Origin: an uncultured Planctomycetota bacterium
Lineage (GTDB): Bacteria > Planctomycetota > Phycisphaerae > Sedimentisphaerales > UBA12454
Assembly: GCA_903847315.1 (NCBI GenBank)
Contig: CAINDG010000026.1
Span: 62,001-126,000 of the forward strand
Direction: 5' to 3'
DNA: 64,000 nucleotides
In this document: positions 47,430 to 64,000 of the stretch, one piece after another
Layout: each line of letters opens with the position of its first letter
Numbering within the stretch: position 1 is the stretch's first letter
Made by a program: the position numbers and the translations under genes
The notes under the pieces: model-generated
What the model was told of the DNA's origin: nothing
Databases searched by the model: none
What the model saw: the letters and a program-made list of their open reading frames with translations, nothing else

Positions 47430-48491
47430 ATGACCGATAATCGAAATAATTCAAATGAGCCGATGGTAATCGGGATAACGATGGGCGAGCCTTTGGGTAT
47501 CGGGCCGGAAATAATCGTCAAAGCGCTGTACGACCCGTTTTTGCGGCGAGGCGTGAAGTTTATTATATTCGGAATGGAAGAATTTCTCGAATATGCAGCC
47601 GATGCCACTGAAATTGCACCTTACTGGGGACGATGCCAGCATGAAAAAATCAGCAGAGATTTTCCGCATAATATAATCGTGGCGGATTATGACGACTATT
47701 CAGTGCCGACGTGGGCAAAAGGGCCGAGCAAGGCAGGCGGCGAGGCGTCGCTGCGGTTCTGCGTCGATGCAATCGAAGCGGCAAGAGCGGGTATCATTGA
47801 TGCAATTGTTACGGCACCGATAAGCAAGGTAAGCTGGAAAGAAGCGGAGGCTGAATGGCCGGGGCATACAGAAATGCTCGCGGCGATGTGCAAAAGTCCG
47901 CGCAAGGCGATGATGTTCGCGGCAGGGCCGCTGAAAATCGCACTTGCGACAATACACGAAGCGCTGTTCGACCTTCGCAATAAATTTACAATCGGATGCG
48001 TTTACGAGCCGATAGATTTGCTGAATGACGCTTTGCAGGAATTTTTCGGGATAAAAAAGCCGCATATAGCAGTGGCGGCGCTAAATCCGCATGCGGGCGA
48101 AGAAGGGCAATTCGGCGATGAAGAACAAAGAATAATATCGCCGGCGATTTTGATTGCACAGGAAATGGGGATTAAGTGCTCCGGGCCGTATCCTGCCGAT
48201 ACGCTTTTTGTCAGGGCGGCGGCGGGTGAATTCGACGGAGTTGTCGCGATGTATCACGACCAGGGAATGATACCTGTCAAACTGCTTGCGTTTAAAGACG
48301 CGGTTAATGTGACGATAGGCCTGCCGATAATACGCACATCGCCGGCGCACGGCACAGCGTTTGACATCGCTGGAAAAGGAATCGCGGATGAATCAAGCTT
48401 TAAAGCGGCAGTTAAACTCGCGATAGAAATGGCGAAAACCAAAAAACAAAACGCAGAATACAAAACACAGAATACCGAAGCAGGGAAGTAG
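47430..48491 (+). CDS. pdxA: 4-hydroxythreonine-4-phosphate dehydrogenase
   Basis: 353 residues. VIGITMGEPLGIGPEIIVKAL, GHTEMLAAMC, ALNPHAGEEGQFGDEE, YPADTLFVRA, MYHDQGMIPVKLL and GTAFDIAGKG are PdxA hallmarks, with metal-binding His residues in GHTE, NPHAGE and YHDQG. It acts in DXP-independent pyridoxal phosphate synthesis. Followed by rsmA after 12 bases, the common pdxA-rsmA order. Confidence 0.95.
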   Translation: MTDNRNNSNEPMVIGITMGEPLGIGPEIIVKALYDPFLRRGVKFIIFGMEEFLEYAADATEIAPYWGRCQHEKISRDFPHNIIVADYDDYSVPTWAKGPSKAGGEASLRFCVDAIEAARAGIIDAIVTAPISKVSWKEAEAEWPGHTEMLAAMCKSPRKAMMFAAGPLKIALATIHEALFDLRNKFTIGCVYEPIDLLNDALQEFFGIKKPHIAVAALNPHAGEEGQFGDEEQRIISPAILIAQEMGIKCSGPYPADTLFVRAAAGEFDGVVAMYHDQGMIPVKLLAFKDAVNVTIGLPIIRTSPAHGTAFDIAGKGIADESSFKAAVKLAIEMAKTKKQNAEYKTQNTEAGK

Positions 48492-48503
48492 AAAAAGCCA
48501 TAT

Positions 48504-49388
48504 ATGCAGACGAAAACAGACATTCAGAGACTTTTAGCAGGGGCGGGAGTTGAGCCGAATAAACGGCTCGGGCAGCATTTCCTCATCGACCTTAATCTAA
48601 TGGAGTTTTTACTTACAAACGCAGCGATAACGAAAAACGATATTGTGCTGGAAGTCGGTACGGGAACAGGGTCACTGACGGGCGAACTTGTCAAAAGGGC
48701 GGGGAAAGTTGTCGCTGTCGAATGCGACGATATTCTTGCGGGAATAACAAAACAGCATCTTCGCAACGCGGAAAATTTAGAAATTATAGTCGCCGATGTA
48801 CTGGAAAGTAAAAATACAATCAATCACGAAGTAATTGAAAAATTAATACAGGCACAGCAGGAAGTTTTCGGCAGAGTTCTTCTTGTGGCGAATCTGCCTT
48901 ATAACGCGGCGTCGTGCGTAATGCTGAATCTTCTGGATGGGCCGGTCGTTGCCGATGAAATGGTTGTGACCGTGCAAAAAGAAGTCGCCCAAAGAATGGC
49001 GGCTGCGCCGGGCAGCGAAGATTACGGGATATTGAGCATATTCCTTTCAGCGATGGGGCAATGCAAGGTGCTGAGGAAACTTTCGCCAAAGGTGTTCTGG
49101 CCAGTGCCGCAAGTGGACTCGGCAATGGTGCGATTCGACAGAGACCAGAAAAAAGCTTCTGAGATTCATAATGTTGTATTATTCAAACAGGTGGTGGACC
49201 TTTTTATGGGTCATCGGCGAAAAATGATGAGGGCCTGTGTGAAATCGGCTGAAGGCAAGCTGGCTTTGATTCACAACTGGGAAGATATTTTCGCCAGGGC
49301 ATTTGTCGAGCCGCATCACAGGCCTGAAGAATTAAGCGCTGTAGATTACGTTGCAATCGCAAATTTATGTAATGAAACGCTGGGCTAA
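48504..49388 (+). CDS. rsmA: 16S rRNA dimethyladenosine transferase
   Basis: 294 residues. NKRLGQHFLIDLN, the SAM motif VLEVGTGTGSLTGEL, and the catalytic VANLPYNAAS (N-L-P-Y) are typical of KsgA/RsmA. The C-terminal helical domain is complete. It dimethylates the two adenines near the 3' end of 16S rRNA. The end overlaps the convergent fumarase gene by 4 bases. Confidence 0.95.
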   Translation: MQTKTDIQRLLAGAGVEPNKRLGQHFLIDLNLMEFLLTNAAITKNDIVLEVGTGTGSLTGELVKRAGKVVAVECDDILAGITKQHLRNAENLEIIVADVLESKNTINHEVIEKLIQAQQEVFGRVLLVANLPYNAASCVMLNLLDGPVVADEMVVTVQKEVAQRMAAAPGSEDYGILSIFLSAMGQCKVLRKLSPKVFWPVPQVDSAMVRFDRDQKKASEIHNVVLFKQVVDLFMGHRRKMMRACVKSAEGKLALIHNWEDIFARAFVEPHHRPEELSAVDYVAIANLCNETLG

Positions 49389-50236
49389 ATTTCGCATGAA
49401 GCGTGGCGGTGGGCGTGACATTCGATATTTACTGCGACGGGGAGCGAAGCGATATGACAGGGGGCAGTCTCAATTAAAACTGCAATGGCCGTTGTGTCGC
49501 CGCCTAAGCCGGCAGGACCAATACCGAGTGAATTTATTTTCCGCAGAAGCTGGTTTTCCATTTGGGCATAGAAAGGCTCGGTGTTTTGCGAATTGAGTTT
49601 TCTTATGAGGGCTTTTTTACTCAGGAGGCAGCACTGCTCGAAATCACCGCCGATGCCAACGCCAATTATAAACGGCGGACAGGCATCAGCGCCTGCATTG
49701 GCAACAGTTTTTACAATCCAATCGGAAATTTTTTCGGCGCTGTCTGTCGGCAAAAACATTTTGAATTGACTTTTGTTTTCGCATCCGCCGCCTTTTGCCA
49801 TTAGCGTTATTTTTATTTTGTCGCCGGCGACGATTTCAGTGTGAATAACAGCAGGGGTGTTTGTGCCGGTGTTTTTTCTGTTATTAAGAGGCTGGGCAAC
49901 GACGCTTTTCCGCAAAAAGCCTTTTTCGTAACCGCTTGCTACGCCTGCGTTTATGGCATCGACAATGGTTTTGGTTTCCGGTTCAATTTTTACCTGAGAG
50001 CCTAACTGAATGAACACAACGGCAAGGCCTGTGTCCTGACAAATGGGGATTTGTTTCTGCTGAGCTATTTTCGCATTTTCGAGAAGCTGATTCAGCGTAT
50101 TTTTCGCGGAGGCGTTAGACTCTTTTTTCGCAGCGGCTGTCAGTGCAGCCAAAACATCCTGCGGCAGTTCGCAGCCTGCGGTTATGCAGAGCCTTTCAAC
50201 TTCAGAAACGATTTTTTCAAATGGTACAGTTCTCAT
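49385..50236 (-). CDS. Fumarate hydratase class I, alpha subunit
   Basis: 283 residues. It carries iron-sulfur ligand motifs of class I fumarases/tartrate dehydratases (PICQDTGLAVVFIQ, GGGCENKSQF, DACPPFIIGVGIGG) and the typical end (IGPAGLGGDTTAIAVLIE). This corresponds to the alpha (N-terminal) subunit of the two-subunit form. The beta subunit is not adjacent on either side, so it lies outside the window or elsewhere. Substrate could be fumarate/malate or tartrate. Confidence 0.88.
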   Translation of the reverse strand: MRTVPFEKIVSEVERLCITAGCELPQDVLAALTAAAKKESNASAKNTLNQLLENAKIAQQKQIPICQDTGLAVVFIQLGSQVKIEPETKTIVDAINAGVASGYEKGFLRKSVVAQPLNNRKNTGTNTPAVIHTEIVAGDKIKITLMAKGGGCENKSQFKMFLPTDSAEKISDWIVKTVANAGADACPPFIIGVGIGGDFEQCCLLSKKALIRKLNSQNTEPFYAQMENQLLRKINSLGIGPAGLGGDTTAIAVLIETAPCHIASLPVAVNIECHAHRHASCEI

Positions 50237-50240
50237 AGGA

Positions 50241-52445
50241 TTATTTTATTTCAATATCAAACGTTTTATACATCGTATTGTTTTCGGCGTCGGATATTTT
50301 AACGGCGACAACGTGCCGGCCGGTTTTCAAATCTTCCATTTTTATTGTAAAGTTTTCAGAGGTAGTGTCAAAGACATTATCATCAGGCAGAACAGAAATC
50401 CATTTTTCGTTGCTGTCGATTGTATAGGCGAAACCGTCAATTGTGCTGAATTCATCGGTAACTTTCAGGGTCAGAACCGCAGAGGAGCCGGTTATCTGAA
50501 GCTGATGCTTTTCAATTGCAGGAGCGGTATTATCAATGGTAACCGGTTCGCTAATCCTTGAGCCTGTAAGGGTTGAAGAAGCGTTGTTGCTTAGTCTGTC
50601 GGAAGCGGTAACTTTCAATTCGTAGATACCGTCCTCAACAGTTTTAGTATCCCAGTCGAAGGTGGTTTTGTCAAGTTCATCTACCAGTTTAATCCAGCCG
50701 GTACGGCCTTTTTTTCTGAAATCTATTTGGTAAATAAGCTGGTCGCCGTTTTCGTCCTCCGCCCTGAAGCTGATTTTACGTACGCCGGTATTGGCGTTTT
50801 TCTCATCGACTTTGCCGACGGTAATTTCTATTATTTTCGGGGCAAGGTTCGGTACGACATAAGCCGCGGCCACTTCTCGAACGACGGGAGCAGCGGTGTT
50901 TGTGCCGTTTAGAATCAATTTATACTGGCAAAATCTGCCGAGAGGAACGGTAAGGTCAACGGGTTCCGTTATTTTTACCGGTTCTGTCCAGGCGGAGAAG
51001 GTCGGGTCGTTTACATCATTAACATTTCCGCTTCTGGCGCTTAAAAGTATTTTCGCATCGGCTGGGATGTCGGCTTCAATCTGAAGTTTGCCCCACTGGG
51101 CGGGCTGGCCCGCGTCAATCAGGCTGGATTCATAGTCGCCTGTCTGGGCAAAGGCCGATTTGAGTTTTATGAGCTTGGGCGGATTTGCGGTCGCAAAAAT
51201 TATGTCGCTTCCAAGTTTTTTAATATCGGTTATCTGCGAAGACTGCTTATCTTCATAAATCATTGTTTCAGTTTCGGTTTTTGGATTGATGCTGAACAGT
51301 TGCGCCTTGTTGCCTGTGCCGAGCAGGAACCGGTCGTTCTGCGTACACAGCGTAAAGAAGACCGCAGTTTCATGGAAAATATCCGTTACGAAACCATTGG
51401 AGTCAATTTTGTAAATGTGACTTGCGGAACCTGCCGGCTGATTTCTTTCAAACTCCGCAGGGGGCGGCAGATTTTTGGCCGGACGTACGTCCAGAGACGT
51501 GTTAGGTGTTTTTAATGATAGACCAGAGTCCTGGCCCGATTCAGACGGTTCCTTTGGTTCGGGGTTTTCAGGTTTTCCGAGGGCCAAAGGTTTTTTCATT
51601 TCCGAGCCGCCTTTTAGCTGGGCTTTTATCGACTTGTAGGAAGTGGCGGCGGCGTATAGATTTCCGCTGCCGTCAAAAAGCAGGTCGGTAATTTCGTTTT
51701 CGCCGCTGTCATAAAGGATTGAAGCGGTTTTCTTTTCAGGATTAACTTTATAAACGAGACCTCTTGTGTCGGTGCCTGCGTAGACGAAGCCGTCTTTGCC
51801 GACGACAAGACACAAAATATTTTTGTCCTGGCAGGTATAGATAAGCTGCGGATTGCGGCATTTGCTGTCGAGCCGCCAGATTTGCCCTTTGGGGCCTGTG
51901 CCGAGAAAGATATTACCGGCCTTGTCGAGCGTGATGGCGAAAATGTAGGAAGCCTGATTCGGCTCGAAGACGCTTTCAAATTTTTTGCCGTCAAAACGAA
52001 TGAGTCGGCATTTGTCGCCGCTTACGCCGGCAAGGAGGTCGCCGCCGGAATCCAGAGCCAGTCTGAAAATATGCTGATTGGACAGGTGCTTTCTCGGCTC
52101 GTTGGGTTCGTTGGTTTCTTTTACCTGCTGTTTTTCCGGATAAATGCAGACAGTTTTGCCGTCTTTATATTTGTAGATTTGGCCGTTGGGACTTGTGCCG
52201 ATATATACGGAGCCATCGTCTTTGCAGACTATCGAGTTTATTGTCCAGACATCGTTAAAATCCGCTGTGAGTGTCTGTGACGAGGCGGCGAGAGAAATTG
52301 TTCCGCGGGAACTGATGATGGTGTTCTGCGTTTTGCCTTTTGAAAAATCGTCGAAGGTCTTGTGTTTTATAATTTTGCTCGTAACGGCAGGGCAATTGCA
52401 GGCGGCAATAAGAATAACGAGCACAAGGAACAAATATTTTTTCAT
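50241..52445 (-). CDS. Secreted propeller lipoprotein with Ig-like C-terminal region
   Basis: 734 residues. Signal peptide ending LIAAC, a possible lipobox. Residues about 60-440 hold repeated G-x-V/I-Y-x-G-T-x-x-x-G-x-I-Y-K units (DGSVYIGTSPNGQIYKY, AGNIFLGTGPKGQIWRL, DGFVYAGTDTRGLVYKV), a beta-propeller. A Pro/Glu-rich spacer interrupts it. The C-terminal 250 residues look like beta-sandwich domains (SFRAEDENGDQLIYQIDFR, DGIYELKVTASDRLSN). The fumarase gene follows 5 bases later. Function unknown; likely binding of a surface ligand. Confidence 0.75.
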   Translation of the reverse strand: MKKYLFLVLVILIAACNCPAVTSKIIKHKTFDDFSKGKTQNTIISSRGTISLAASSQTLTADFNDVWTINSIVCKDDGSVYIGTSPNGQIYKYKDGKTVCIYPEKQQVKETNEPNEPRKHLSNQHIFRLALDSGGDLLAGVSGDKCRLIRFDGKKFESVFEPNQASYIFAITLDKAGNIFLGTGPKGQIWRLDSKCRNPQLIYTCQDKNILCLVVGKDGFVYAGTDTRGLVYKVNPEKKTASILYDSGENEITDLLFDGSGNLYAAATSYKSIKAQLKGGSEMKKPLALGKPENPEPKEPSESGQDSGLSLKTPNTSLDVRPAKNLPPPAEFERNQPAGSASHIYKIDSNGFVTDIFHETAVFFTLCTQNDRFLLGTGNKAQLFSINPKTETETMIYEDKQSSQITDIKKLGSDIIFATANPPKLIKLKSAFAQTGDYESSLIDAGQPAQWGKLQIEADIPADAKILLSARSGNVNDVNDPTFSAWTEPVKITEPVDLTVPLGRFCQYKLILNGTNTAAPVVREVAAAYVVPNLAPKIIEITVGKVDEKNANTGVRKISFRAEDENGDQLIYQIDFRKKGRTGWIKLVDELDKTTFDWDTKTVEDGIYELKVTASDRLSNNASSTLTGSRISEPVTIDNTAPAIEKHQLQITGSSAVLTLKVTDEFSTIDGFAYTIDSNEKWISVLPDDNVFDTTSENFTIKMEDLKTGRHVVAVKISDAENNTMYKTFDIEIK

Positions 52446-52468
52446 TTTATTTTTTTCTCCGTATAAAA

Positions 52469-54262
52469 TTATTTCTTTTCAACGGTGATAGTAAAACTTT
52501 TGCTGTCGAGCACGATTGTTTCGAGCGGTATTGTCCGCTGGAGCCATTCGGAAGCGGGCTGGACGGACGTTGAACGCTTTTCATTGTTCAGCAGGAGCGT
52601 CTTAGTCAGCGGCAATTGCGGCAGTTCGGATTTTTCAAGAGCGATTCCGCCCTGCGGAAGCGTCAAAACGACATAAAGATTATTTCTTTTTTTGTTAGCG
52701 ATGTCATTAATGATATTTATAAGGTCCGGCAGATTTTCCGGCGTGTATTTATAGGGCGCAAGTTTTGTAACGAATTGTCTGTAGTCGTTATCGCCCATCG
52801 CGACAAGCTCGTATTCGCCCGGCGGGATATCGTCAGGAATTTTTATTTCTATTTTATAAGTTTTGTTGCCGGTCAGATACGATTCGAGCGTTGTCGAGGC
52901 AGTGATTGTCTGGCCGAGCTTTGCCGTTGTATTGGAAACCTCAAAATTCCATATATGAGAAACCGCTGTTTTTGGCAGGATTTTAATTTCAAAGTCGAGA
53001 GAGGTTATGGCAGGCCTGTTATAAGGATTATTCATAATCAGGCTTATCGCGCCGATGCTGTCAGAGAGGCAATCTTCAAGCGCGGCGGAGCTTGAGAAAT
53101 TTTCGAAGCAGATGGGTTTATAGCCCTGGATGCCGATGCGTGTTTTATATAATACGGTATGTTCGGCGGGCAAAGGACCAAGCATTGTGGCTGTTCCGGA
53201 GAGGCAGACTTCCAGCAAAAGCGGCGTGAAATACCGGTGCGATACAATCTGACAATTATATATGCGTGTTTTGGCGTCGTTGAATCGCTCTATCGTAATC
53301 CGCATCGGGATTGTGGCGGCCTTTTTGCCGATTGTGCCGACGATAGCGGATGTCTCGTCGGCATATACAGCCCCTTTAACATCGATTGTCTGGCCGAATT
53401 TAAATGACCTGACGACATTTGCGACAATGGTATGTACGTAACCCGTCGCCATCGGCACATCAATCGAACCCTGACCGAGAAAGCTGTGGCCGAAGGCGTA
53501 AACTTTGTCGCCTGCGACCTCAGTAATTGTGCCAATTGCGGAAAGTTCTATATCGCCATAAACGAGCGGCAGAGAAAGAATGCCGCCGGGCTTCATTGGC
53601 ATATCCGCGTATTCAGGGAAAAGTTTTCCGGAAGCGCCGCCCGAGACGGGCAGAAGACCTGCGGATTCAAAAGTATCGGCCAGACCTGCAAAAGCGGTTT
53701 GCGGCAGAGTAGTCGCCAAAGGGCAGGGCAGCATACTTATGCCGCCGGCGGTTTGTGAAGGAGATTTTATACAATTGATTGTCTGGTGATAGGCGGTTTT
53801 AAGGTCGATTGGTTTTGAAAAATCAAGAACCGGCGCAGAAGACATTTTGTCGGCAGGCGCAGAACCGCCAACGCTCAATATTTCTTCTATAGGCGTTACG
53901 CCGTAAAGCGGGTCTTTGCTGTATATCCAGGCAAAGGCCAAAGCGCCGGCGAGTCTGCCGTTTATATAGACCGGCGAACCGCTGCAGCCGGCGACCGGAC
54001 CTGTATGGATAAAGCGTTCGTCAGTGCCCATAACAAGGATTGCGTTTTTTCCGGGCGTAAAGTCCCTGACGACATCGACGACTTTGAGGTTGAATTTTTC
54101 AATTTCCGTGCCTTTATAGACCGTAAGGCAGGTCGCGTCCATTCCGGGAGTGATTTCATCAATTGTTATGTACTTTGTTTTGTCGATTTCTGCGAAGCAA
54201 CTACAGGGAAGCAAGGAAATGAGGACGTAAGGAAGTAAAGAAAATAGTCTTTTTCGAAACAT
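52469..54262 (-). CDS. SpoIVB-type serine peptidase (family S55) homologue
   Basis: 597 residues with a signal peptide. The first 250 residues have the S55 pattern: EITPGMDATCLTVYKGTEIEKF near the start and GPVAGCSGSPVYINGRLAGALAFAW, where the Ser of GCSGSP is the nucleophile, then VTPIEEIL. A long beta-rich C-terminal half follows (VSNTTAKLGQTITASTTLES). Known: SpoIVB cleaves SpoIVFA in spore formers; in non-sporulating planctomycetes the role is unknown. It lies 23 bases upstream of the propeller gene, same strand. Confidence 0.85.
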   Translation of the reverse strand: MFRKRLFSLLPYVLISLLPCSCFAEIDKTKYITIDEITPGMDATCLTVYKGTEIEKFNLKVVDVVRDFTPGKNAILVMGTDERFIHTGPVAGCSGSPVYINGRLAGALAFAWIYSKDPLYGVTPIEEILSVGGSAPADKMSSAPVLDFSKPIDLKTAYHQTINCIKSPSQTAGGISMLPCPLATTLPQTAFAGLADTFESAGLLPVSGGASGKLFPEYADMPMKPGGILSLPLVYGDIELSAIGTITEVAGDKVYAFGHSFLGQGSIDVPMATGYVHTIVANVVRSFKFGQTIDVKGAVYADETSAIVGTIGKKAATIPMRITIERFNDAKTRIYNCQIVSHRYFTPLLLEVCLSGTATMLGPLPAEHTVLYKTRIGIQGYKPICFENFSSSAALEDCLSDSIGAISLIMNNPYNRPAITSLDFEIKILPKTAVSHIWNFEVSNTTAKLGQTITASTTLESYLTGNKTYKIEIKIPDDIPPGEYELVAMGDNDYRQFVTKLAPYKYTPENLPDLINIINDIANKKRNNLYVVLTLPQGGIALEKSELPQLPLTKTLLLNNEKRSTSVQPASEWLQRTIPLETIVLDSKSFTITVEKK

Positions 54263-54412
54263 CAGTTTTTATCCTGTTTTTAGATATAATCTTACAAACA
54301 GGGGATAATTTTAGTGGTGTAAAACAGATATTGCAAGTTAAAAGGCAAAAGGCTATAATCAGAGCCCTTAAGTAGTTATAAATCGAAAACTAACATAAAA
54401 ATGAGGTAAACA

Positions 54413-55207
54413 ATGAAATCAGAACGTCGTCATGAACTGCAAACGAACGAACTGGCAGACTGGATATCTAATTTCCCACAGTGGTTCCAGGATAATCTGG
54501 CGACAGTAATTGTCGGGGCAGTTGTAGTCGTAGGTCTTATAGCATATACAATCTTCTTTTATCACAGGGAAAGCAGCGTCTGGGACCAAAAATCGGCACA
54601 GACAACGGCACTTCTCGACCAACTTCGCTGGCAGAAACAGACAGTCATACAGGGCAAGAACCAGGGACTGGGAGTTTCTGATTTCTTTCTGAATACCGCC
54701 AGCGGCCTGGAGACGGCAGCTACTGAAACGCAAAATGATATTCTATCGGCTCTTGCAATGATTAAACGAGCCGAGGCACTTCGTACCGAACTTCACTATC
54801 GGACTCAAATCGCTGAGCCGGATGTCCAGAAATTCCAGCTCGAACAAGCTCAAAAACTTTATGCACAGGCACTGGAAAAGGCAAAAACTTCGCCGACAGT
54901 GGCGGCAATGGCTGAGTACGGAACGGCATTGTGTCTTGAGGACAAGGGAGATTTCGCGGGAGCGAAAAAGCTTTACGATAAAATTGCACAGGCTCCTGAA
55001 TATAAGGGCACCCTTTATCCGGCAAGAGCGAAGCTTCGCGCAGAGACTATGAGCGACAACCAGATAAAAGTTGTTTTTGCAAAAGCTGAAAAAACAGAGC
55101 AGCCCGCTCCGGAAACAGTAAAACAACCCATAGGACCGCTGGAACTGGAAACACCGTCAAGTGGAACCAAGGCGACAACCGGCGCCGATGCTAATTCGGC
55201 TAAATAA
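54413..55207 (+). CDS. Membrane-anchored TPR protein (YfgM-like)
   Basis: 264 residues: cytoplasmic N-terminus, one membrane helix (about 29-50, TVIVGAVVVVGLIAYTIFFY), then a helical repeat region (LEQAQKLYAQALEKAKTSPTVAAMAEYGTALCLEDKGDFAGAKKLYDKI) and a Pro/Thr tail. The layout is that of YfgM-like ancillary SecYEG factors, but identity is low-confidence. It is 6 bases ahead of the pseudouridine synthase gene. Confidence 0.65.
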   Translation: MKSERRHELQTNELADWISNFPQWFQDNLATVIVGAVVVVGLIAYTIFFYHRESSVWDQKSAQTTALLDQLRWQKQTVIQGKNQGLGVSDFFLNTASGLETAATETQNDILSALAMIKRAEALRTELHYRTQIAEPDVQKFQLEQAQKLYAQALEKAKTSPTVAAMAEYGTALCLEDKGDFAGAKKLYDKIAQAPEYKGTLYPARAKLRAETMSDNQIKVVFAKAEKTEQPAPETVKQPIGPLELETPSSGTKATTGADANSAK

Positions 55208-55213
55208 CCTGCG

Positions 55214-56254
55214 ATGAGCGAAGACAAGTTCATCGAGCCGGAGAATCAAACCGAACAGAGTGCTCCGGACGCATTTGAGGTTGAGGGCGCAGAACATCTT
55301 ACCCTGCGAGTCGGCACCAATATAACACAACGGAGATTGGATAAATACCTCGGCGGCAGACTAAGCAATTTCAGCAGAACGATGCTTCAGAAACTGATAG
55401 TTGAAAAGGCAGTAACTATCAACGGCAAATCAGCCAAGCCCAGCACAAAGATATCGCCGGGCGATACCGTCGATTTAATTCTTCCGCCGCCGCCGGCCAA
55501 GGAGTATATCCCGGAAGATATTCCTCTGAATATTATTTATGAAGACGACGATATTCTGGTGATTAACAAACAGGCCAACCTGATTGTTCATCCTGCCAGA
55601 GGTTATAAAACAGGCACGCTTATCAATGCTCTCGCATTTCATTCGAAACAGCTTTCTAAAGGCAGCGAAGATTTTCGGCCTGGAATAGTTCACAGGCTCG
55701 ACCGCAATACCACAGGCGTTCTTATTATCGCCAAAAACGAAACGGCGCACTGGCGACTTGCCAGACAATTTGAGATGAGACAGACAAAAAAGCATTACCT
55801 GGCGATTGTACACGGCACGCCCGACCTTATGGCTGACTGCATCAATAAGCCGCTGGCGGTTCATCCGCTGATACGCGAAAGATTCGCTGTTCGGCCGGAA
55901 ATCGGCAAAGAAGCTATAACATTCTACGAGGTCATTGAAAAATTCAGAGGTTATTCGCTGCTCAAGGTGAATATAAAAACCGGCAGGACACATCAAATAC
56001 GCGTTCATATGTCGTATATCAAGCACCCGATAATAGGGGACGAGATGTACGGCGGAAAATTTGTCTATCCCTGGCAGATTGAAGATACAGAAGCCCAGCC
56101 GCAGGAGCCGCTGATATCAAGACCCGCACTTCACGCCTGGCAGCTTGAAATTACACATCCTGCGACGAATAAGCTGATGAAATTCGAGGCGCCTTTAGCC
56201 GATGATATGCAGCAAATGCTCGAAGAGCTGAGAAAGTTCAGGAAGGCAAAGTAA
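55214..56254 (+). CDS. rluD: RluA-family 23S rRNA pseudouridine synthase (RluD-like)
   Basis: 346 residues. An S4 RNA-binding domain (RRLDKYLGGRLSNFSRTMLQKLI..., about 35-95) precedes the catalytic domain with GIVHRLDRNTTGVLIIAKN, whose Asp is the nucleophile, and later GRTHQIRVHM and GDEMYGG. RluD acts on helix 69 of 23S rRNA; related enzymes have other targets, so the exact position is inferred. The last plus-strand gene before the PEP-CTERM array. Confidence 0.88.
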   Translation: MSEDKFIEPENQTEQSAPDAFEVEGAEHLTLRVGTNITQRRLDKYLGGRLSNFSRTMLQKLIVEKAVTINGKSAKPSTKISPGDTVDLILPPPPAKEYIPEDIPLNIIYEDDDILVINKQANLIVHPARGYKTGTLINALAFHSKQLSKGSEDFRPGIVHRLDRNTTGVLIIAKNETAHWRLARQFEMRQTKKHYLAIVHGTPDLMADCINKPLAVHPLIRERFAVRPEIGKEAITFYEVIEKFRGYSLLKVNIKTGRTHQIRVHMSYIKHPIIGDEMYGGKFVYPWQIEDTEAQPQEPLISRPALHAWQLEITHPATNKLMKFEAPLADDMQQMLEELRKFRKAK

Positions 56255-56270
56255 TTTTCGCCGAATTCAA

Positions 56271-56303
56271 TAAAAAAGCCATCCCGATTTATCGGGATGG
56301 CTT
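56271..56303 (-). terminator. Terminator of the PEP-CTERM array gene at 56342
   Basis: AGCCATCCCGAT (56277-56288) pairs perfectly with ATCGGGATGGCT (56291-56302). On the minus strand it is followed by T's at 56277-56272. Its core hairpin also occurs at 19993. Confidence 0.85.
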
Positions 56304-56341
56304 AGCCGAACGATATGGCACACGCCATTTTCTATTTCTAT

Positions 56342-57094
56342 CTATTTTTTTCTTAGAAGCAGACTCAAAGCGCCGAGACTAAGCAGACAAATCGTCGCCG
56401 GTTCGGGAACCGGTTCAAAACTGTAGGTGTAACTATTCATGACAAAGTCGTCTGCATATGTGATTATTGTCTGGTTTGTTCCAATGACGCCCTTGCTGAT
56501 GTTCATCCTGAGCACGGTGGCATTCGAGAAATCAAAGTTGTTTCCCCACTGAGACCACGGATTCTCGAACTGCGACCACGTCATTTCCTTCATAATCGGG
56601 CCACTGCTGTATGCATTGGTCCAGACGATGTACTCAAGACTCTGGCTGCTTGTGGACTGCAACCATGTATCACCAAGGTTGTTGTTAGTTGGCCAGATTG
56701 TGACCACCGTATCGTACCCGGTACCTGAGTATATGGGTCCGTTGTTGCTTATGTCGGGATCGTCCAACACGAAACTGAGGTTGGGGATGTAGTCTTCGGG
56801 TGCTTTCGCCCAATAACTCCAGGAATTAACGCTACTGACGGTAGTAACACCGGCGGGTGTGGGGTAGACTCTCGCTTGGGCGTATCCCCCGCTTCCGGGC
56901 CAATCTAATTTTGCCGACCAATTTCCTGCTGCGCTGGTACTATTGGTCCAGGGAAAAGTTCCACCCGACCCCTGCATTGTGGTAATATCGCCGTTAATGC
57001 TCGGGGTGGTATAAGGCAATTCAGCAGCACGAACCATATTTGCCCCAAAACTTAAGGCGATTACTACCGCACAAATACTAATTAACTTTTTCAT
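56342..57094 (-). CDS. PEP-CTERM protein, array gene 1
   Basis: 250 residues: signal peptide beginning MKKLISICAVVIALSFG, an ectodomain with many Trp, Tyr and Asn (for example SVNSWSYWAKAPEDY), and the tail VPEPATICLLSLGALSLLLRKK. No known fold recognised; a carbohydrate-binding-like sandwich is possible. The signal peptide and upstream bases are shared with the gene at 59362, but the ectodomains are unrelated. Confidence 0.85.
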   Translation of the reverse strand: MKKLISICAVVIALSFGANMVRAAELPYTTPSINGDITTMQGSGGTFPWTNSTSAAGNWSAKLDWPGSGGYAQARVYPTPAGVTTVSSVNSWSYWAKAPEDYIPNLSFVLDDPDISNNGPIYSGTGYDTVVTIWPTNNNLGDTWLQSTSSQSLEYIVWTNAYSSGPIMKEMTWSQFENPWSQWGNNFDFSNATVLRMNISKGVIGTNQTIITYADDFVMNSYTYSFEPVPEPATICLLSLGALSLLLRKK

Positions 57095-57282
57095 AACTTC
57101 TCTCCTGAAAAATAATTTGTTTAATATTTTTTAAATAACACTAACTCCTTCGATTTTATTTTTCTCGTTTTCCCTGTCCTTATAAAAAATCAAATTATTT
57201 TTTTGACCGTATATATTTATCTAATCTTCCTAAAAAATATTGCTCCAATCGCGAATATTGCAATCGTCGCCGGCTCGGGGAC
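57063..57282. repeat. Tail-intergenic-head block, copy 1 (220 bp)
   Basis: This covers the start of array gene 1, the gap, and the 3' end of array gene 2. It aligns without gaps to 60263-60482 with about 11 mismatches by my count (about 95% identity). The central 60 bases are identical. Confidence 0.93.
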
Positions 57283-57987
57283 GATAGTACCGCTGTCGAC
57301 TACGAAGTTGTCAAGATAAGCATCGCCCGAAGCCAGTTCTCTGCCGTCTGCCCAGCCGCTTATGTATGGGATGACAATGCCGCTGCCCCACTGGTCCTGA
57401 AAATTCTCGATGGTAATCCATTCGTTAGTTGCCCAATAGCCGGCATAGCTCAGATATAACTTGTCTTCGCTCACATCGTAGGAGATGTACAGAGTTCCAT
57501 CGTCTATAGTCCTCACCTTCTCTTCTTGGTCGATCTCAAAGTCGTCGCCATTTAGTCCTGCTATTCCTCGTTCGTGGTAAAAATATGGGTGGGTCCCTTC
57601 GTTGTTTTCATAACAGCCAGCTTCTAAGGTAAGATAATTACTCCCGTCTCCGATGAGCGCAAGATAAACGCAGGAATCGGAATTCAGAGGCCCAGAAGTT
57701 GAGATATGGTGGAAATCAATTTTAAGAGAAAAGTCGTTCGTCGGCAGAAGCCCCCAGCCATTAGCGATGTAATTAGCTCCATTATCCGCATCTGCGGTGG
57801 AGCGAAACTCCAATCTTCCGCCGGTCTCGTTCAGCCAGGCCTTGCTGTGATTGTCCTCATAAAGATTCCACATAGACGTATCCCTCGAAGTGTCGTTGAA
57901 GTCATCTGATTTCAACGCCGCATAGGCCACAGAAGTTGTTACGGCCATTAACAGTAATACTGTGGAAATTATTAGTAATTTTTTCAT
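57217..57987 (-). CDS. PEP-CTERM protein, array gene 2
   Basis: 256 residues: signal peptide MKKLLIISTVLLLMAVTTSVAYA, an ectodomain starting DDFNDTSRDTSMWNLYEDN, a LamG-like/concanavalin-type pattern (DFHHIST, LYISYDVSEDKLYLSY, DAYLDNFVV), and the tail VPEPATIAIFAIGAIFFRKIR. Paralogues at 61331 and 63157 share this domain, but its sorting tail matches instead the gene at 60417. Domain and tail thus have different histories. Confidence 0.86.
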   Translation of the reverse strand: MKKLLIISTVLLLMAVTTSVAYAALKSDDFNDTSRDTSMWNLYEDNHSKAWLNETGGRLEFRSTADADNGANYIANGWGLLPTNDFSLKIDFHHISTSGPLNSDSCVYLALIGDGSNYLTLEAGCYENNEGTHPYFYHERGIAGLNGDDFEIDQEEKVRTIDDGTLYISYDVSEDKLYLSYAGYWATNEWITIENFQDQWGSGIVIPYISGWADGRELASGDAYLDNFVVDSGTIVPEPATIAIFAIGAIFFRKIR

Positions 57988-58032
57988 TTAAGTTTTTTCC
58001 CTTTCTGTTTTTTTATTTAATTATTCCCTTAT

Positions 58033-59169
58033 TTATCTTTTTCTGCGAATCAGACTTAAAGCGCCGAGGCCGAGCAGGCAAATCGTCGCCGGTTCTGGTA
58101 TCAGCAGTACGAGGTCCTTGCCGTCTGTACCGCCTTTATAAGTCAAGGTATATTGATATTGTATTCCGCCGTAAGTTAGAATTATCGTATCTCCTTCCTG
58201 ACCTTTTCCGCCATTTATGTCGCCTGTGACGGTATCAAAAGTGCCCTGAATAATATTGACACAATCAATAAGGAGAATATCGCCCGTCGGCGGCGCAGCA
58301 GTCAGGGTGAGAATCAGCTGTGCGGTGGTGAACTGTGTGTCGCCGATGCCGTCTCCATCTGTGTCGATGAGGTCACCTTGATCAATATAAGCGATGCCAT
58401 TAACGGCAATCGGACTTACGCCATCACTGCCAATCTGATATTCGAGAATACCAGTACCATAGTCATAGGGGTTTTTGTCGGAGGCATGATCACCCGCGAT
58501 ATACAGGTACTTTATATGAATGTCAGGAGCGGTGCCAACTATCGTCATCTGTCCGTAGCCGTTTCGGTATCCTAATATCAGTTCTCCCGCACATTTCGGG
58601 TCGGCAGCATCGTATGTAAAGGTTCCGCCGCTGATGGTATAAGTAGAGCCTGATAACATACCACCATTAGGACTCATATTTGCATCACCAATTGCAAGCC
58701 TACCCGAAGCCATCTGGCGTGTAAGGGAAATACGTCCGCCTGTCTGGTTTAGGTAGGCAGCGTTTGGAGTGCTCCGAATATCACCAACACGAATCGAGCC
58801 GAAGCCGTAGAGGTCTGCGCCAGCAACAACATTCATTGTCGCGCCCTCATATACCCTGATACCCGTGCCAGACGTTGTGCTTGCCCAGCCGCCTATAGCA
58901 GTGTCCACTGTGCATACTGCCGTTGGCCCCGCGATATTGATTGGCCATGCTCCAGTCGCCAGGTTAATCGTCTCGGCGCTCGGTTCGTCAACAAAGGCAC
59001 CGGTGTATGCGTTACTATCTCTCCAGTTCTGGCCATCACTATCATCCCAGTGGCCTACCGCACCGTAGTCCCACACAAAGTTTCCTCCTTCAGTGAGAGT
59101 AGCAGCGGATGCGCCGATTGCCATAAAAGCTACCAGTAAAAATACAATCCACAATTCCAACTTCTTCAT
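58033..59169 (-). CDS. PEP-CTERM protein, array gene 3 (autotransporter-like)
   Basis: 378 residues after choosing ATG 59167-59169 (GGAG upstream). Signal peptide, then W-D-Y-G-A-V-G-H-W-D-D-S-D-G-Q-N-W, beta-solenoid repeats with STYTISGGTFTYDAA, a LEYQIGSDGVSPIAV segment and IPEPATICLLGLGALSLIRRKR. A clear paralogue of the pair at 41569 and 42622, about 15 kb away, so this family is spread across loci. Confidence 0.86.
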   Translation of the reverse strand: MKKLELWIVFLLVAFMAIGASAATLTEGGNFVWDYGAVGHWDDSDGQNWRDSNAYTGAFVDEPSAETINLATGAWPINIAGPTAVCTVDTAIGGWASTTSGTGIRVYEGATMNVVAGADLYGFGSIRVGDIRSTPNAAYLNQTGGRISLTRQMASGRLAIGDANMSPNGGMLSGSTYTISGGTFTYDAADPKCAGELILGYRNGYGQMTIVGTAPDIHIKYLYIAGDHASDKNPYDYGTGILEYQIGSDGVSPIAVNGIAYIDQGDLIDTDGDGIGDTQFTTAQLILTLTAAPPTGDILLIDCVNIIQGTFDTVTGDINGGKGQEGDTIILTYGGIQYQYTLTYKGGTDGKDLVLLIPEPATICLLGLGALSLIRRKR

Positions 59170-59361
59170 TTTAGCTTCTCCATTTAACAATCATTGTTTT
59201 TGTTATCTGCCTTAAGCGGATAAAGCAGTTATTTTTTCAAAATAACTACAACTCGTACGACTAAAGTATTTTTGTTCTTGTTTTCCTTTCTTTTCGTATT
59301 CTCGTTTATTGTTTTTGCCGCCGCGGCGATGTGCCGCGGCGGCCTATTATTCACTTGTTTA

Positions 59362-60294
59362 TTATTTTTTCCTTCGAAGCAGACTCAAAGCGCCAAGGCC
59401 GAGCAGGCAAATTGTCGTAGGTTCGGGAACAGCCGTCAAGCCACTCAACGCCACAATATTAGAGGGTAGTTGAGATTTGATGTTGAAGAGCGCCGTTGCG
59501 CTTCCCGTCAGTGGGTTGATCTTATATACGTTGAAATCGTCAGAAGAAGGAGTGGCACCATTGGCCATCCAACTAATGCCGAGCAGGTCGCCGTCGGCTT
59601 CGAAGTCCCAGCCGTCAATCAACCCGACAGGAGAGGTGCCGACACTTGCCGTGAAATTGGTGGCTATGACATCTGTGGTTGTCTTTATCCAACTGGAATG
59701 ATCAGTTTTCCAATCGGAGGCGTACCACGTGCCGTCTTTGTAGGCCAGCGCGCCGTCTGGGGCCGGATACCCGCCAATATAGGCGCCCAAGGTTGCGGAG
59801 ATTGGGTCGTTGCTGCCGTTCAGACCGACCTCATAGATGTAACCTCGTTTGCTGTATGCGCTTCCCGTATCACCTGTACGGGTATTTGTCCAGCAGTTCT
59901 CCACTGCGTAGAGTTTGCCATTATGATATTCCATCGCGTTCCATTGGGGCTCGTCCGTCCCGGTCAATGTCCTTAATGACGTGTCTGACAGTATTGTTCC
60001 AGTGGCCGCGTCCACCTTTGCAAGTTTGAAATTGTAGAAATTGTCAAGCGAACCCGTTGTGTTATGCACGGCGTAGAGGATGTTGCCCGGGGCGTAGGTG
60101 ACATCCATGATTATGTTCCAATCGGAGTATGTATAGGTCGTCCCGACAGTTCCGGTGGCGGTATCCAGCTTGAACAGCACCGAGCCGGTTTTACTCGTAC
60201 TCTGTGGTACACTTGCGGAGCCCCAGAACTGATCTGCTTGAGTTATTCCGGCGATGAACAACACTACTGCACAAATACTAATTAACTTTTTCAT
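59362..60294 (-). CDS. PEP-CTERM protein, array gene 4
   Basis: 310 residues: signal peptide MKKLISICAVVLFIAGITQA, propeller-like ectodomain with repeated Y-A-P-G-N-I-L-Y-A-V and NGKLYAVENCW strands typical of secreted beta-propellers, and VPEPTTICLLGLGALSLLRRKK. The signal region matches array gene 1. Between it and array gene 3 (59170-59361) there is only A/T-rich sequence with a GCCGCCGCGGC stretch. Confidence 0.83.
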   Translation of the reverse strand: MKKLISICAVVLFIAGITQADQFWGSASVPQSTSKTGSVLFKLDTATGTVGTTYTYSDWNIIMDVTYAPGNILYAVHNTTGSLDNFYNFKLAKVDAATGTILSDTSLRTLTGTDEPQWNAMEYHNGKLYAVENCWTNTRTGDTGSAYSKRGYIYEVGLNGSNDPISATLGAYIGGYPAPDGALAYKDGTWYASDWKTDHSSWIKTTTDVIATNFTASVGTSPVGLIDGWDFEADGDLLGISWMANGATPSSDDFNVYKINPLTGSATALFNIKSQLPSNIVALSGLTAVPEPTTICLLGLGALSLLRRKK

Positions 60295-60482
60295 AACTTC
60301 TCTCCTGAAAAATAATTTGTTTAATATTTTTTAAATAATACTAACTCCTTCGATTTTGCTTTCCTTGTTTTCCCTTTCCTTATAAAAAATCAAATTATTT
60401 TTTTGACCGTATATATTTATCTAATCTTCCTAAAAAATATTGCTCCAATTGCGAATATTACAATCGTAGCCGGTTCGGGGAC
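60263..60482. repeat. Tail-intergenic-head block, copy 2 (220 bp)
   Basis: This matches 57063-57282 without gaps. It covers the start of array gene 4, the gap, and the sorting-tail end of array gene 5. Confidence 0.93.
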
Positions 60483-61289
60483 CGTATAAATAAAGCCGTG
60501 GATACCAGAGGCGTCTTGGTATGTGCCAACAATATTACTGCCGTCTATGCCAGTTGGGTTTGTGCTAGTTGCTCCGGGTGCGTCGAGGGTGGTCCAGCTT
60601 GTTCCGTTGTAGAGAAAACCGTGTTGTTCACCAGAGGCGTCACCATAACAACCAACAATGTCGCTGCCGTCAATGCCAGCCAATTCTATCCAAGTCGCCT
60701 CAGGCTTGTCGAGGGTGATCCAGCTTGTCCCGTTATAGAGAAAACCATGTTCCTTGCCGGAGGCGTCAGTGTACGAACTAACAATATTGCTGCCGTCGAT
60801 GCCATCTGCCGATGTATCGATTGCTCCAGGGTAGTCAAGGGTGGTCCAGCTTGTTCCGTCATAGAGAAAACCATGGCCGCCGGAGGCGTTATAGTACGAA
60901 CCAATAATATTGCTGCCGGAGATGCCATAGGCGAATGTTCCAGTTGCCCCGGGTACGTCGAGGGTGGTCCAGCTTGTCCCGTTATAGAGAAAGCCATGTT
61001 CCTTACCGAAGGTGTCAGTATATTCACCAACAATATTGATTCCGTCGATGCCATCTGCCGATGTGTAAGTTGCTCCTGACATGTTAATGGTGGTCCAGCT
61101 TGTCCCGTTATAGAGAAAACCGTGTCCACCGGAAGCATCAGTGTATCCACCAACAATATTGCTTCCGTCGATACTACTTGCGCCTGTCTCAGTTGCTTCG
61201 GGCATACCAAGAGTGGTCCAAGTACCCGCCATTGTGTAACAAGTACCGAAGAGAGATATTACCACCCAAGTTACAATTAAGTTTTTCAT
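60417..61289 (-). CDS. PEP-CTERM protein with six HAF-type repeats, array gene 5
   Basis: 290 residues: signal peptide, six repeats of about 41 residues of the form WTTLDxPGATxTxAxGIDGSNIVGxYTDASGxxHGFLYNGTS, then VPEPATIVIFAIGAIFFRKIR. The repeat is the HAF-family extracellular repeat, probably a propeller blade. Nucleotide repeats are nearly identical, so the units can expand or shrink by recombination. Confidence 0.88.
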   Translation of the reverse strand: MKNLIVTWVVISLFGTCYTMAGTWTTLGMPEATETGASSIDGSNIVGGYTDASGGHGFLYNGTSWTTINMSGATYTSADGIDGINIVGEYTDTFGKEHGFLYNGTSWTTLDVPGATGTFAYGISGSNIIGSYYNASGGHGFLYDGTSWTTLDYPGAIDTSADGIDGSNIVSSYTDASGKEHGFLYNGTSWITLDKPEATWIELAGIDGSDIVGCYGDASGEQHGFLYNGTSWTTLDAPGATSTNPTGIDGSNIVGTYQDASGIHGFIYTVPEPATIVIFAIGAIFFRKIR

Positions 61290-61330
61290 TTAAGTTTTTC
61301 CTTCCTTCCATAAATTTACTATTTGTGTTG

Positions 61331-62125
61331 TTATTTTTTTCTTCGAAGCAAGCTTAAAGCGCCGAGACTAAGCAGGCAAATAGTTGCCGGTTCAGGGATG
61401 TAAACAACTGTGCCGCTGTCAACTACGAAGTTGTCGAGGAAGGCATCGCCCGAAGTCAGTTCTCTTTTGTCTGCCCAGCCGCCTAGAAATGGACTGACAG
61501 CAGTACAGTTCCATTCGCCTTGCAGTATGTTCTCAAGGGTCCAAAAAGAATTAGCAGACCCATAGCTTGTGGTGCTCAGATATAGGGAGTTCAGACTGGC
61601 GTCGTAAGAAATGTAAAGAATACCATCGTTTTCGTTTCTGGTGTCCTGCTTGTCGTCTTCGATGTCATTTGTGGTTTTGTAGTAATCGAAACGCGGGTGG
61701 CTTCCATTTTGGTCGAGATAGCTGCTGGCACTTATCGAGATATTGTTGCTTTTTATCCTTTCAAGGTCGCCTATGCCTTTGCCGAAACCAAGCTCAACTT
61801 CAATGCCTGAAAAATCTGGTCCCGAAGTTGAACCGTTGTGGAAATCAACTCTGAAAGAAAAATTGCTTGCTGTCGAAAGCCCCCAGCCGTTAGAGTAGTA
61901 AACGGCTGTTGACATTATCGCATCTGTCGTGGAGTGAAGCTCCAGTTGATGATTGGCTTGGTCCAGCCAGGCATTGGCGTGGCTGTCCTCGTAGAGATTC
62001 CACATAGATGTATTCCGCGAATTGTCGTAGAAGTCGTCCGATGGCAGGGCAGGCGCCGCATAGGCCACAGAAGTTGTTACAGCCGTTAATACCAATACTA
62101 TAGAAATCGCAATTAACTTTTTCAT
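61331..62125 (-). CDS. PEP-CTERM protein, array gene 6 (LamG-like)
   Basis: 264 residues. Signal peptide ending TTSVAYA, the DDFYDNSRNTSMWNLYEDS domain start seen in array genes 2 and 8, ILYISYDASLNSLYLS, GDAFLDNFVVDSG and IPEPATICLLSLGALSLLRRKK. A lectin-like sandwich is likely. GGAGA precedes ATG 62125. Its tail is of the common array type, unlike the tail of its paralogue at 57217. Confidence 0.86.
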   Translation of the reverse strand: MKKLIAISIVLVLTAVTTSVAYAAPALPSDDFYDNSRNTSMWNLYEDSHANAWLDQANHQLELHSTTDAIMSTAVYYSNGWGLSTASNFSFRVDFHNGSTSGPDFSGIEVELGFGKGIGDLERIKSNNISISASSYLDQNGSHPRFDYYKTTNDIEDDKQDTRNENDGILYISYDASLNSLYLSTTSYGSANSFWTLENILQGEWNCTAVSPFLGGWADKRELTSGDAFLDNFVVDSGTVVYIPEPATICLLSLGALSLLRRKK

Positions 62126-62178
62126 TTGAGTTTCTCCATTTGCTTTTCATTTTTTTATTTGTTGTTATTTTCCCAAAA
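62111..62178. repeat. Head-side repeat of array gene 6
   Basis: The 68 bases spanning the start codon and upstream region match 63934-64000 at the window end with few changes and one gap. Similarity extends into the signal-peptide codons. Confidence 0.8.
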
Positions 62179-62204
62179 TAGCAACACGTACGACTAAAAT
62201 TGCT

Positions 62205-63125
62205 TTATTCTCGTTTTCCTTTCCTTACAAAAAACTCAGATTTTTTTCTTCTAATCAGACTTAATGCGCCGATGCCGAGGAGGCAAATCGTCGCCGGTTC
62301 GGGGACATCGGCGGTAACGGCAATGCCGGTCGGGCCGCTCAACCCCGAGACCAGAGAGGCATTCACCGTCGCTCCCGACGTGGTGTATTCGCCGATCATG
62401 CCGTTGTTCATGTTCGCGACAAACAGATTCGATCCAGACACGGCAATGCCGTACGGGCCATCCAACCCCGAGACAAGGGAGGCGTTCACCGTGGCTCCCG
62501 ATGTGGTGTATTCGCCGATTATGTTGCCGCTCGTGACAAACAGGTCCGATCCAGAGACGGCAATGCCGCTCGGGTTATCCAGCCCCGGGATCAGGTAGGC
62601 ATTCACCGTGGCTCCCAACGTGGTATATTTGCCAATCATGCCGTTAGCTGTTAAGCCTTGGTTCATGTTCGCGACAAACAGATTCGATCCAGACACGGCA
62701 ATGCAGTACGGGGAACGCAACCCTGAGACCAGGGGGGCATTCACCGTCGCTCCCGACGTGGTGTATTCGCTGATCGTGCCCGTGATGTCCGAGACAAACA
62801 GGTTCGATCCAGAGACGGCAATGCCGGTCGGGGCAGTCAACCCCGAAACAAGGGATGCGTTCACCGTGGTTCCCGACGTGGTGTATTCGCCGATCGTGCC
62901 GTTGTTGTAGTTCGTGACAAACAGGTTCGATCCAGAGACGGCAATGCCGGTCGGGTAATCCAACCCCGAGACCAGAGATGCGTTCACTGTGGCTCCCGAG
63001 TTGGTGTATTTGCCGATCGTGCCGTTGTTGTAGTTCACGACATAGATATCCCCGCGCGCGGTCGTCGGCATGGTTGACGCCGCCAGCATCGCGGCCACTA
63101 AACAAATCGTAATTAACTTTTTCAT
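62205..63125 (-). CDS. PEP-CTERM protein with six NHL/Vgb-like repeats, array gene 7
   Basis: 306 residues from ATG 63123-63125 (GGAG upstream). Signal peptide, six repeats of about 42 residues with GIAVSGSNLFVTNYNNGTIGEYTTSG, fitting a six-bladed propeller of the NHL/virginiamycin-lyase type, then VPEPATICLLGIGALSLIRRKK and an 11-residue extra tail (SEFFVRKGKRE). The tail beyond the basic end is unusual. The nucleotide repeats are almost identical. Confidence 0.86.
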   Translation of the reverse strand: MKKLITICLVAAMLAASTMPTTARGDIYVVNYNNGTIGKYTNSGATVNASLVSGLDYPTGIAVSGSNLFVTNYNNGTIGEYTTSGTTVNASLVSGLTAPTGIAVSGSNLFVSDITGTISEYTTSGATVNAPLVSGLRSPYCIAVSGSNLFVANMNQGLTANGMIGKYTTLGATVNAYLIPGLDNPSGIAVSGSDLFVTSGNIIGEYTTSGATVNASLVSGLDGPYGIAVSGSNLFVANMNNGMIGEYTTSGATVNASLVSGLSGPTGIAVTADVPEPATICLLGIGALSLIRRKKSEFFVRKGKRE

Positions 63126-63156
63126 ACTTTCTCTCCTTCTTGAATTATTATTTTTA

Positions 63157-63948
63157 TTAACCAATTTTTTTTCTAATCAGACTTAATGCGCCAAGACCGA
63201 GCAGGCAAATCGTTGTCGGTTCAGGAACGATTGTTCCGCTTTCGACTACAAAGTCGTCGAGAAAAGCATCGCCGGATGTGAGGACTACGTTTTCGGCATC
63301 GCCGCTCAAGATTGGGCTAACAACGTCAGCCTTCCATTCGCCTCTCAGCAAACCAGATATGGTAACAAAAGCATTAGTTGTCCCGTAGCCAGTATCACTC
63401 ATATACAATTCGTCCAAGATTGTATTGTAGGAGATATACAAAATACCGTCATCCGAGGACCTTGTTATTTCACGTTCATTAACATGAATGCCATCCGTGG
63501 TTTTATCGCCCCAAATCTGCTTCTCGCTTCCATTGTCATAACTATAATAACCGGCGCCTAAAGAAGCATTGTTGTTACTCATTGTTGCAAAGTCCCCAAA
63601 TTTGGCGAGGCCAAGCATAGCGTCAAATTCGTATTGCCCCGACCCTAGAAGCGAACTGGCGTGGAAATTGGCCCTGAATGAAAAATCCTCCGCTGTCGAA
63701 AGACCCCAGCCATTAGCTACATAATTGGCTGACACATCTCCTGAATTTCCCGCAGAATGAATTTCCAGTTGCTGGTTATTTTCATACAACCACACCTTGC
63801 TTGAATTCTCCTCGTAGAGATTCCACATAGATGTATTCTGCGAATTGTCGTTGAAGTTGTCCGATGGCAGGGCAGACGCCGCATAGGCCACAGAAGTTGT
63901 TACGGCCATTAACACCAATACTAAACAAACAGTAATTAACTTTTTCAT
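63157..63948 (-). CDS. PEP-CTERM protein, array gene 8 (LamG-like)
   Basis: 263 residues: signal peptide MKKLITVCLVLVLMAVTTSVAYA, the DNFNDNSQNTSMWNLYEEN domain start, ILYISYNTILDELYMS, GDAFLDDFVVESG, and VPEPTTICLLGLGALSLIRKKIG. A paralogue of genes 2 and 6. The upstream 52 bases continue the shared head sequence to the window edge, so the array probably goes on. Confidence 0.86.
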   Translation of the reverse strand: MKKLITVCLVLVLMAVTTSVAYAASALPSDNFNDNSQNTSMWNLYEENSSKVWLYENNQQLEIHSAGNSGDVSANYVANGWGLSTAEDFSFRANFHASSLLGSGQYEFDAMLGLAKFGDFATMSNNNASLGAGYYSYDNGSEKQIWGDKTTDGIHVNEREITRSSDDGILYISYNTILDELYMSDTGYGTTNAFVTISGLLRGEWKADVVSPILSGDAENVVLTSGDAFLDDFVVESGTIVPEPTTICLLGLGALSLIRKKIG

Positions 63949-64000
63949 TTGAGTTTCTCCTTTTGCTTTAATCTTTTTATTTGTTGTTATTTTCCCAAAA
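63934..64000. repeat. Head-side repeat of array gene 8
   Basis: This matches 62111-62178 (start codon plus upstream A/T-rich sequence ending TTATTTTCCCAAAA). It is cut by the window end. Confidence 0.8.

Follow-up and report, generated by a model that had tools for sequence, protein, structure and literature searches.

In the window analyzed here, i.e., the 64,000 nucleotides (nt) at positions 62001–126000 of contig C26 in a draft genome (2.44 Mb, 97% complete) of an uncultured Planctomycetota bacterium, a run of minus-strand genes encodes PEP-CTERM proteins, which are composed of a signal peptide (head), an ectodomain and a C-terminal sorting tail. The tails and heads that these genes have in common very probably served as sites of homologous recombination, an ordinary and presumably RecA-dependent process that shuffled the ectodomains over evolutionary time. 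Judged from sequence comparisons, the re-pairing of ectodomain and tail is recurrent and the break lies exactly at the sorting tag, i.e., at the PEP codons. The named database relatives of a window protein are distant (34–37% amino acid identity) and come from metagenome-assembled genomes of Planctomycetota/Phycisphaerae, so that the host is probably a planctomycete of this class.

The PEP-CTERM array and its 220-bp blocks

Eight minus-strand open reading frames (ORFs) occupy positions 56342–63948, and every large same-strand ORF of the array is of the PEP-CTERM type, in agreement with the preliminary description of eight same-strand genes with signal peptides and sorting tails. The number eight holds for the window, but the array does not end at the window edge. 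It extends for a further 6.4 kb to the end of C26 (132413) and counts at least 16 genes up to this contig end. Genes 1–15 are complete ORFs, each with head and tail, and a large share of the 32 genome-wide PEP-CTERM tail matches lies inside the array. The array and its surroundings are organized as follows.

55214–56254, plus strand: rluD-like gene for a pseudouridine synthase, in convergent orientation to the array; belongs to the anchor pdxA-rsmA-fum-...-rluD (47430–56254)
56255–56413, minus strand: fixed 3′ end of the array, gene 1 tail and spacer to rluD; aligns with contig C7 of genome G003
56342–57094, minus strand: array gene 1, PEP-CTERM; ectodomain without homologue among 184 sampled PEP-CTERM genes
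57063–57282, minus strand: block copy 1 (gene 2 tail 57217–57282, intergenic 57095–57216, gene 1 head 57063–57094)
57217–57987, minus strand: array gene 2, L-type-lectin-like; ectodomain of family 2/6/8, tail as in gene 5
58033–59169, minus strand: array gene 3, perhaps a beta-helix protein; contig C40 holds a stand-alone paralogue with a different tail
59362–60294, minus strand: array gene 4, PEP-CTERM; without homologue among the sampled PEP-CTERM genes
60263–60482, minus strand: block copy 2 (gene 5 tail 60417–60482, intergenic 60295–60416, gene 4 head 60263–60294)
60417–61289, minus strand: array gene 5, HAF-repeat protein (model TIGR02913)
61331–62125, minus strand: array gene 6, lectin-like, array-type tail; sequence family 2/6/8
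62205–63125, minus strand: array gene 7, NHL/virginiamycin-B-lyase-like propeller (PF24684, E = 3.7e-15; PF01436)
63157–63948, minus strand: array gene 8, lectin-like; genes 9–16 (L009) follow beyond the window

The comparison includes one genome per species, with the host genome designated G000 and a genome of the same genus G003; the 184 PEP-CTERM genes are a non-random sample drawn from PEP-CTERM matches in ten genomes.

All eight window genes match the PEP-CTERM model TIGR02595 at or above its cut-off, and six of them exceed the cut-off of PF07589, for which genes 2 and 5 give sub-threshold matches. The tails consist of a C-terminal PEP motif, a hydrophobic segment and a basic end, and inspection of the translations revealed hydrophobic, MKKLITICLV-like heads. 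The genome furthermore encodes exosortase, with PF09721 matches on C31 (E = 9.8e-54) and C41 (E = 1.7e-6), so that the array products are predicted to be exosortase-sorted surface proteins; their expression, cleavage and surface location would be expected from what is known about the family.

The ectodomains are diverse. Clustering of 14 array genes gave ten ectodomain families, which is a minimum for the whole array, and the eight window genes fall into six (1; 2/6/8; 3; 4; 5; 7), which bears out the earlier count of at least five unrelated ectodomains. HAF repeats in gene 5 and an NHL-like propeller in gene 7, both named before, were recovered by the respective family models (TIGR02913, and the NHL/Vgb models listed above). 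For genes 2/6/8 a structure model shows a predicted beta sandwich (predicted local distance difference test, pLDDT, 78; predicted template modeling score, pTM, 0.79) whose best PDB matches (E from 7e-6) are L-type lectins, with lectin domains from staphylococcal adhesins among them. This points to a predicted L-type lectin/concanavalin-like jelly roll, to which the earlier label LamG-like came near. The model of gene 3 is beta-rich and weakly suggests a beta-helix, and since its structure matches are weak (best E 0.13; one autotransporter passenger at a match probability of 0.92), the earlier label autotransporter-like is plausible but not established.

In contrast to the ectodomains, the ends of the genes are alike. 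Most array genes carry near-identical heads (first ~30 nt) and an array-type tail of ~65 nt (PEPATICLLGLGALSLIRRKK-like), and these head and tail repeats of ~30 and ~65 bp are often 80–90% identical, whereas spacers are common to some genes only; most array spacers are copies neither of one another nor of the block. The block itself is present in just two copies in the genome, 57063–57282 and 60263–60482, which align without a gap at 95% identity, with 11 mismatches and 73 bases as the longest exact run (E = 9e-97). In coding orientation it consists of 66 bp of tail, 122 bp of intergenic sequence and 32 bp of the head of the next gene, and the identity drops sharply at both edges, one of them just before the PEP codons, the other a few bases inside the next signal peptide. 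No ectodomain similarity is detectable between genes 2 and 5 or between genes 1 and 4. The preliminary description of a gap-free block of about 95% identity that joins one tail to the next head between differing ectodomains thus applies to both copies. Shared DNA, including non-coding DNA, lies here beside unrelated segments with sharp edges, as expected for a mosaic array.

Gene 2 combines, as had been noticed, the ectodomain of genes 6 and 8 (43–48% amino acid identity) with the tail of gene 5. Outside the array its ectodomain relatives are found in G037 (55%) and G005 (40% amino acid identity), both with other tails, and the nearest relatives of gene 5 are HAF proteins in G007 (56%) and G010 (51% amino acid identity) with LLLLGLGGLVLRRK-type tails. 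Because the relatives carry other tails, genes 2 and 5, judged from these comparisons, each bear a tail that is foreign to their own ectodomain family, and the donor could be either of the two or a third gene.

Re-pairing of ectodomains and tails within and between genomes

The strongest single comparison, as far as sequences can tell, is the rluD locus of G000 and its congener G003. Most or all of the anchor pdxA-rsmA-fum-...-rluD was present in 10 of 10 relatives examined and marks the orthologous array locus. PEP-CTERM arrays occupy the same position next to this anchor in G003, G006, G009 and G010, and in G000 and G003 the array directly adjoins rluD. The alignment between G000 and contig C7 of G003 spans rluD, the spacer and the rluD-proximal tail (tail ~90% identical in nt) and stops at window position 56414, where the PEP tail starts; the ectodomains are unrelated, and the heads and upstream spacers are similar again (77%). 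Hence different content lies between shared flanks, a further property of a mosaic array. A potassium-transport operon, ktrB/(mscS-like)/ktrA, is located between array and rluD in G009, G010 and G006 and is absent from this position in G000 and G003 (ktr-type operon coordinates L180:2595–5035, L171:1316–4814 and L175:6724–10282; genes named from their translations).

Further cases were identified within the host genome. Over its length, gene 3 has 77–78% DNA identity with its stand-alone paralogue on C40; nt identity reaches 92% in the final 30 codons ahead of PEP and only 46% in the tails. Gene 16 is the last gene of C26 and has a counterpart at the C23 end. These two genes are 98% identical over ~160 ectodomain bases, with an exact run of 141 bases, and their tails give no clear alignment. 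The contigs C26, C23, C28 and C47 end in one common sequence (141-base exact and 49-base overlaps; L009:15185–15414 and the ends of L079, L078 and L060), and 5′ halves of the gene 16/C23 gene type are found on C28 and C47, resulting in two 5′ halves and two tails. Because C47 shares the end sequence and has three PEP-CTERM genes in an orientation matching the array, the more distal array genes may lie on this contig.

Similar blocks are present in three related genomes (G003, G009 and G010). A G003 gene pair falls from 93% nt identity before PEP to 59% in the tail. Moreover, stretches shared beside unrelated ectodomains are found at the C34 end and on C58 of G010 (95% over 114 bp), on C13 and C74 of G009 (tail and spacer, 87% over 181 bp) and at the C18 end and the C17 start of G003 (spacer and head, 98% over 96 bp), with weaker, older cases in G002, G007 and G037 (70–84%). 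A loss of more than 0.2 in nt identity at the PEP codons was counted in 6 of 18 same-genome pairs (ectodomain identity ≥55%) and in 4 of 23 pairs between genomes. One recent duplication without swapped domains in relatives, which could also have produced the block identity, was tested and not found. Re-pairing at gene 3/C40, at gene 16/C23, in the G003 pair and at the rluD locus supports the earlier proposal in so far as recombination between shared ends has re-paired ectodomains and tails more than once.

Plain tandem duplication followed by divergence, in which the ectodomains would have become unrecognizable while selection for export and sorting held the ends, is extremely improbable. True tandem paralogues do exist (genes 12, 13 and 15, and two gene types in the G010 array). 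However, the folds differ, comprising a lectin jelly roll, a propeller and HAF repeats. Non-coding spacers flanked by unrelated ectodomains match at 95%, and paralogues with near-identical ectodomain DNA bear unrelated tails; the C26/C23 junction in gene 16 contradicts this explanation as well, unless it is an assembly error. In the same part of the array, genes 12–15 (L009:11432–14955) are four related neighbors with four different tails, and a homologue of gene 15 in the G009 array (58–62% amino acid identity) has kept a similar tail.

An assembly artefact, in which repeats of a metagenome-assembled genome were joined chimerically and only mimic swaps, is equally hard to credit. The shared ends of C26, C28, C23 and C47 would fit such an artefact, and the 141-base exact overlaps resemble the k-mer overlaps of an assembler. 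Yet both block copies lie within one 132-kb contig, and their longest exact run of 73 bases is shorter than the k of 141 that the overlaps suggest. Gene 3/C40 and the G003 pair are likewise located in contig interiors, and the same pattern is seen in four independent assemblies.

Probable mechanism of ectodomain exchange

The genome encodes RecA, and the repeats formed by tails, heads and spacers could serve as substrates for host homologous recombination. Exchanges with one border at the PEP codons and the other in the tail, the spacer or the next signal peptide would keep the reading frame, and because each repeat holds an in-frame tag or signal peptide, most products should still be exportable and sortable. 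Ectodomains could in this way be inserted, lost, duplicated or re-tailed with export and sorting signals intact. Gene conversion might have generated the block common to genes 2/5 and 1/4, and unequal crossover might account for gain, loss and tandem duplication of genes. Both routes would be RecA-dependent, with a timing that is presumably evolutionary and not programmed.

Enzymes specialized for such exchanges were searched for. No recombinase was found inside the array, and the three tyrosine recombinases of the genome all lie off C26, by which an array-linked recombinase was rejected. An integron was rejected likewise: no integron integrase in the genome exceeds the cut-off (TIGR02249, best score 83.7 bits against a cut-off of 265; such sub-cut-off matches occur in 14 of 14 control genomes as well), and the shared sequence contains coding tail and head and is not present on every cassette. 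The earlier wording of a "system" for shuffling is therefore not upheld, as neither a dedicated recombinase nor an integron was found and the long-term outcome is within reach of ordinary RecA-dependent recombination.

A dedicated, active shuffling or phase/antigenic variation, with blocks evolved as recombination sites and an array content that differs between cells, is very improbable. It would agree with blocks that are in frame at both ends and with the turnover of array ectodomains between species. The array contigs also break in tail/head repeats in G000, G003, G009 and G010, which fits repeats as such or within-sample variants and strain mixtures. Next to the absence of the enzymes described above, the two block copies have already diverged by 5% and most array spacers are not block copies, both of which speak against it. 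A milder variant is that tail, spacer and head act as docking repeats without a recombinase, at which RecA swaps the flanked ectodomains in frame, making up an open cassette platform that changes the surface within populations; this can be proposed only tentatively and is rather doubtful.

Finally, it is highly improbable that the tails resemble each other through convergence or through purifying selection to fit the cognate exosortase, with fast neutral drift causing the tail differences between paralogues. The tails are short and hydrophobic and presumably suit a single processing enzyme, and their amino-acid signatures differ between genomes. However, where array-type tails of G000 sit on unrelated ectodomains, their synonymous codons agree at a fraction of 0.56 compared to 0.30 expected from codon usage, and the similarity runs through non-coding spacers, which refutes convergence or selection as the sole cause. 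Drift, in turn, cannot erase a tail while the adjoining ectodomain retains an exact run of 141 bases. The synonymous agreement of rluD between congeners is 0.49–0.64, about the level of the tails. Tail similarity is higher within than between genomes, both in nt (0.772 vs. 0.730) and at synonymous positions (0.576 vs. 0.510; permutation p = 0.0005 for each). These values fit a slow homogenization with occasional recent exchange better than constant rapid shuffling.

Several points weigh against recombination between tails and heads as the general explanation. With one genome per species, recombination is read from its outcomes and was not directly witnessed as an event. The genomes, which are probably metagenome assemblies, exist as fragmented drafts, and the arrays often end at contig ends. 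The gap in tail similarity within and between genomes is small (0.77 vs. 0.73 in nt), suggesting that much of the tail sharing predates the species. The tails are furthermore under strong compositional constraint, so that part of their similarity reflects selection.

Relation to known systems and further array features

PEP-CTERM proteins are known for one tag on otherwise unrelated domains, and the spread of this tag onto many domains has received little attention so far. The array genes resemble the PEP-CTERM/exosortase (EpsH) proteins in their signal peptide, diverse ectodomains, tripartite tail, many copies per genome and an exosortase (Haft et al., 2006; PMC1569441). That study defined the tag and, for Proteobacteria, reported upstream motifs of the sigma-54 type; its main text nowhere uses the words recombin- and shuffl-, whereas here tails and spacers appear to be exchanged as DNA modules within an array. 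In the collection of papers searched, no earlier work describes gene conversion, recombination or tandem arrays for PEP-CTERM genes. In the array, the tag itself would be an exchange point at the DNA level with exact junctions, providing a concrete route for turnover of the surface repertoire without a specialized recombinase and an explanation for assembly breaks inside such arrays.

The rearrangement and allelic exchange of surface proteins in Porphyromonas gingivalis is similar in its modularity, conserved C-terminal secretion domain and mosaic pattern across strains (PMC5266723). The exchange in P. gingivalis takes place within named genes and concerns variants of related adhesin domains, while in the present array it is unrelated folds that seem to move from gene to gene, with the sorting tag as the breakpoint.

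Surface-protein cassettes that are repeated, conserved at their ends and variable in between also occur in Borrelia vls, Neisseria pilS and Mycoplasma vlhA, in which gene conversion causes antigenic variation by varying one family from related copies, typically at one expression site. In contrast to these, the folds of the array differ, and one expression site with silent partial cassettes is not seen, as genes 1–15 are complete. Integron gene-cassette arrays likewise string together unrelated ORFs, with an intergenic sequence that recurs between them; the array differs from them in the points for which an integron was rejected above.

A spacer element, GGGACGGAGTTAACCCACAG..GGGTATA, follows array-type tails beside unrelated ectodomains in two genera (G003 and G009; L098:36–251 on the minus strand, L180:777–890 and L181:17325–17440), with a GC-rich inverted repeat after it in G003 and in one G009 copy. 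As its core is not found in the G000 array, it was rejected as a recombination site. An Rfam search of the array and its relatives gave no RNA family at gathering level except one tRNA beside the G037 array, and no match in L098, L180 and L181.

In G003, a genome of ~20 contigs, three contig ends (C7 start, C17 start and C18 end) lie within the array at head repeats; because contig ends fall in these repeats, array genes may be missing systematically when such genomes are assembled. In G005, an inverted repeat of 158 bp (94% identical; L071:9057–9214 and 10128–10285) flanks a lectin-like PEP-CTERM gene. It was considered as the border of an invertible cassette and rejected, as no comparable repeat was found around the other sampled genes and the repeat is probably a dispersed one.

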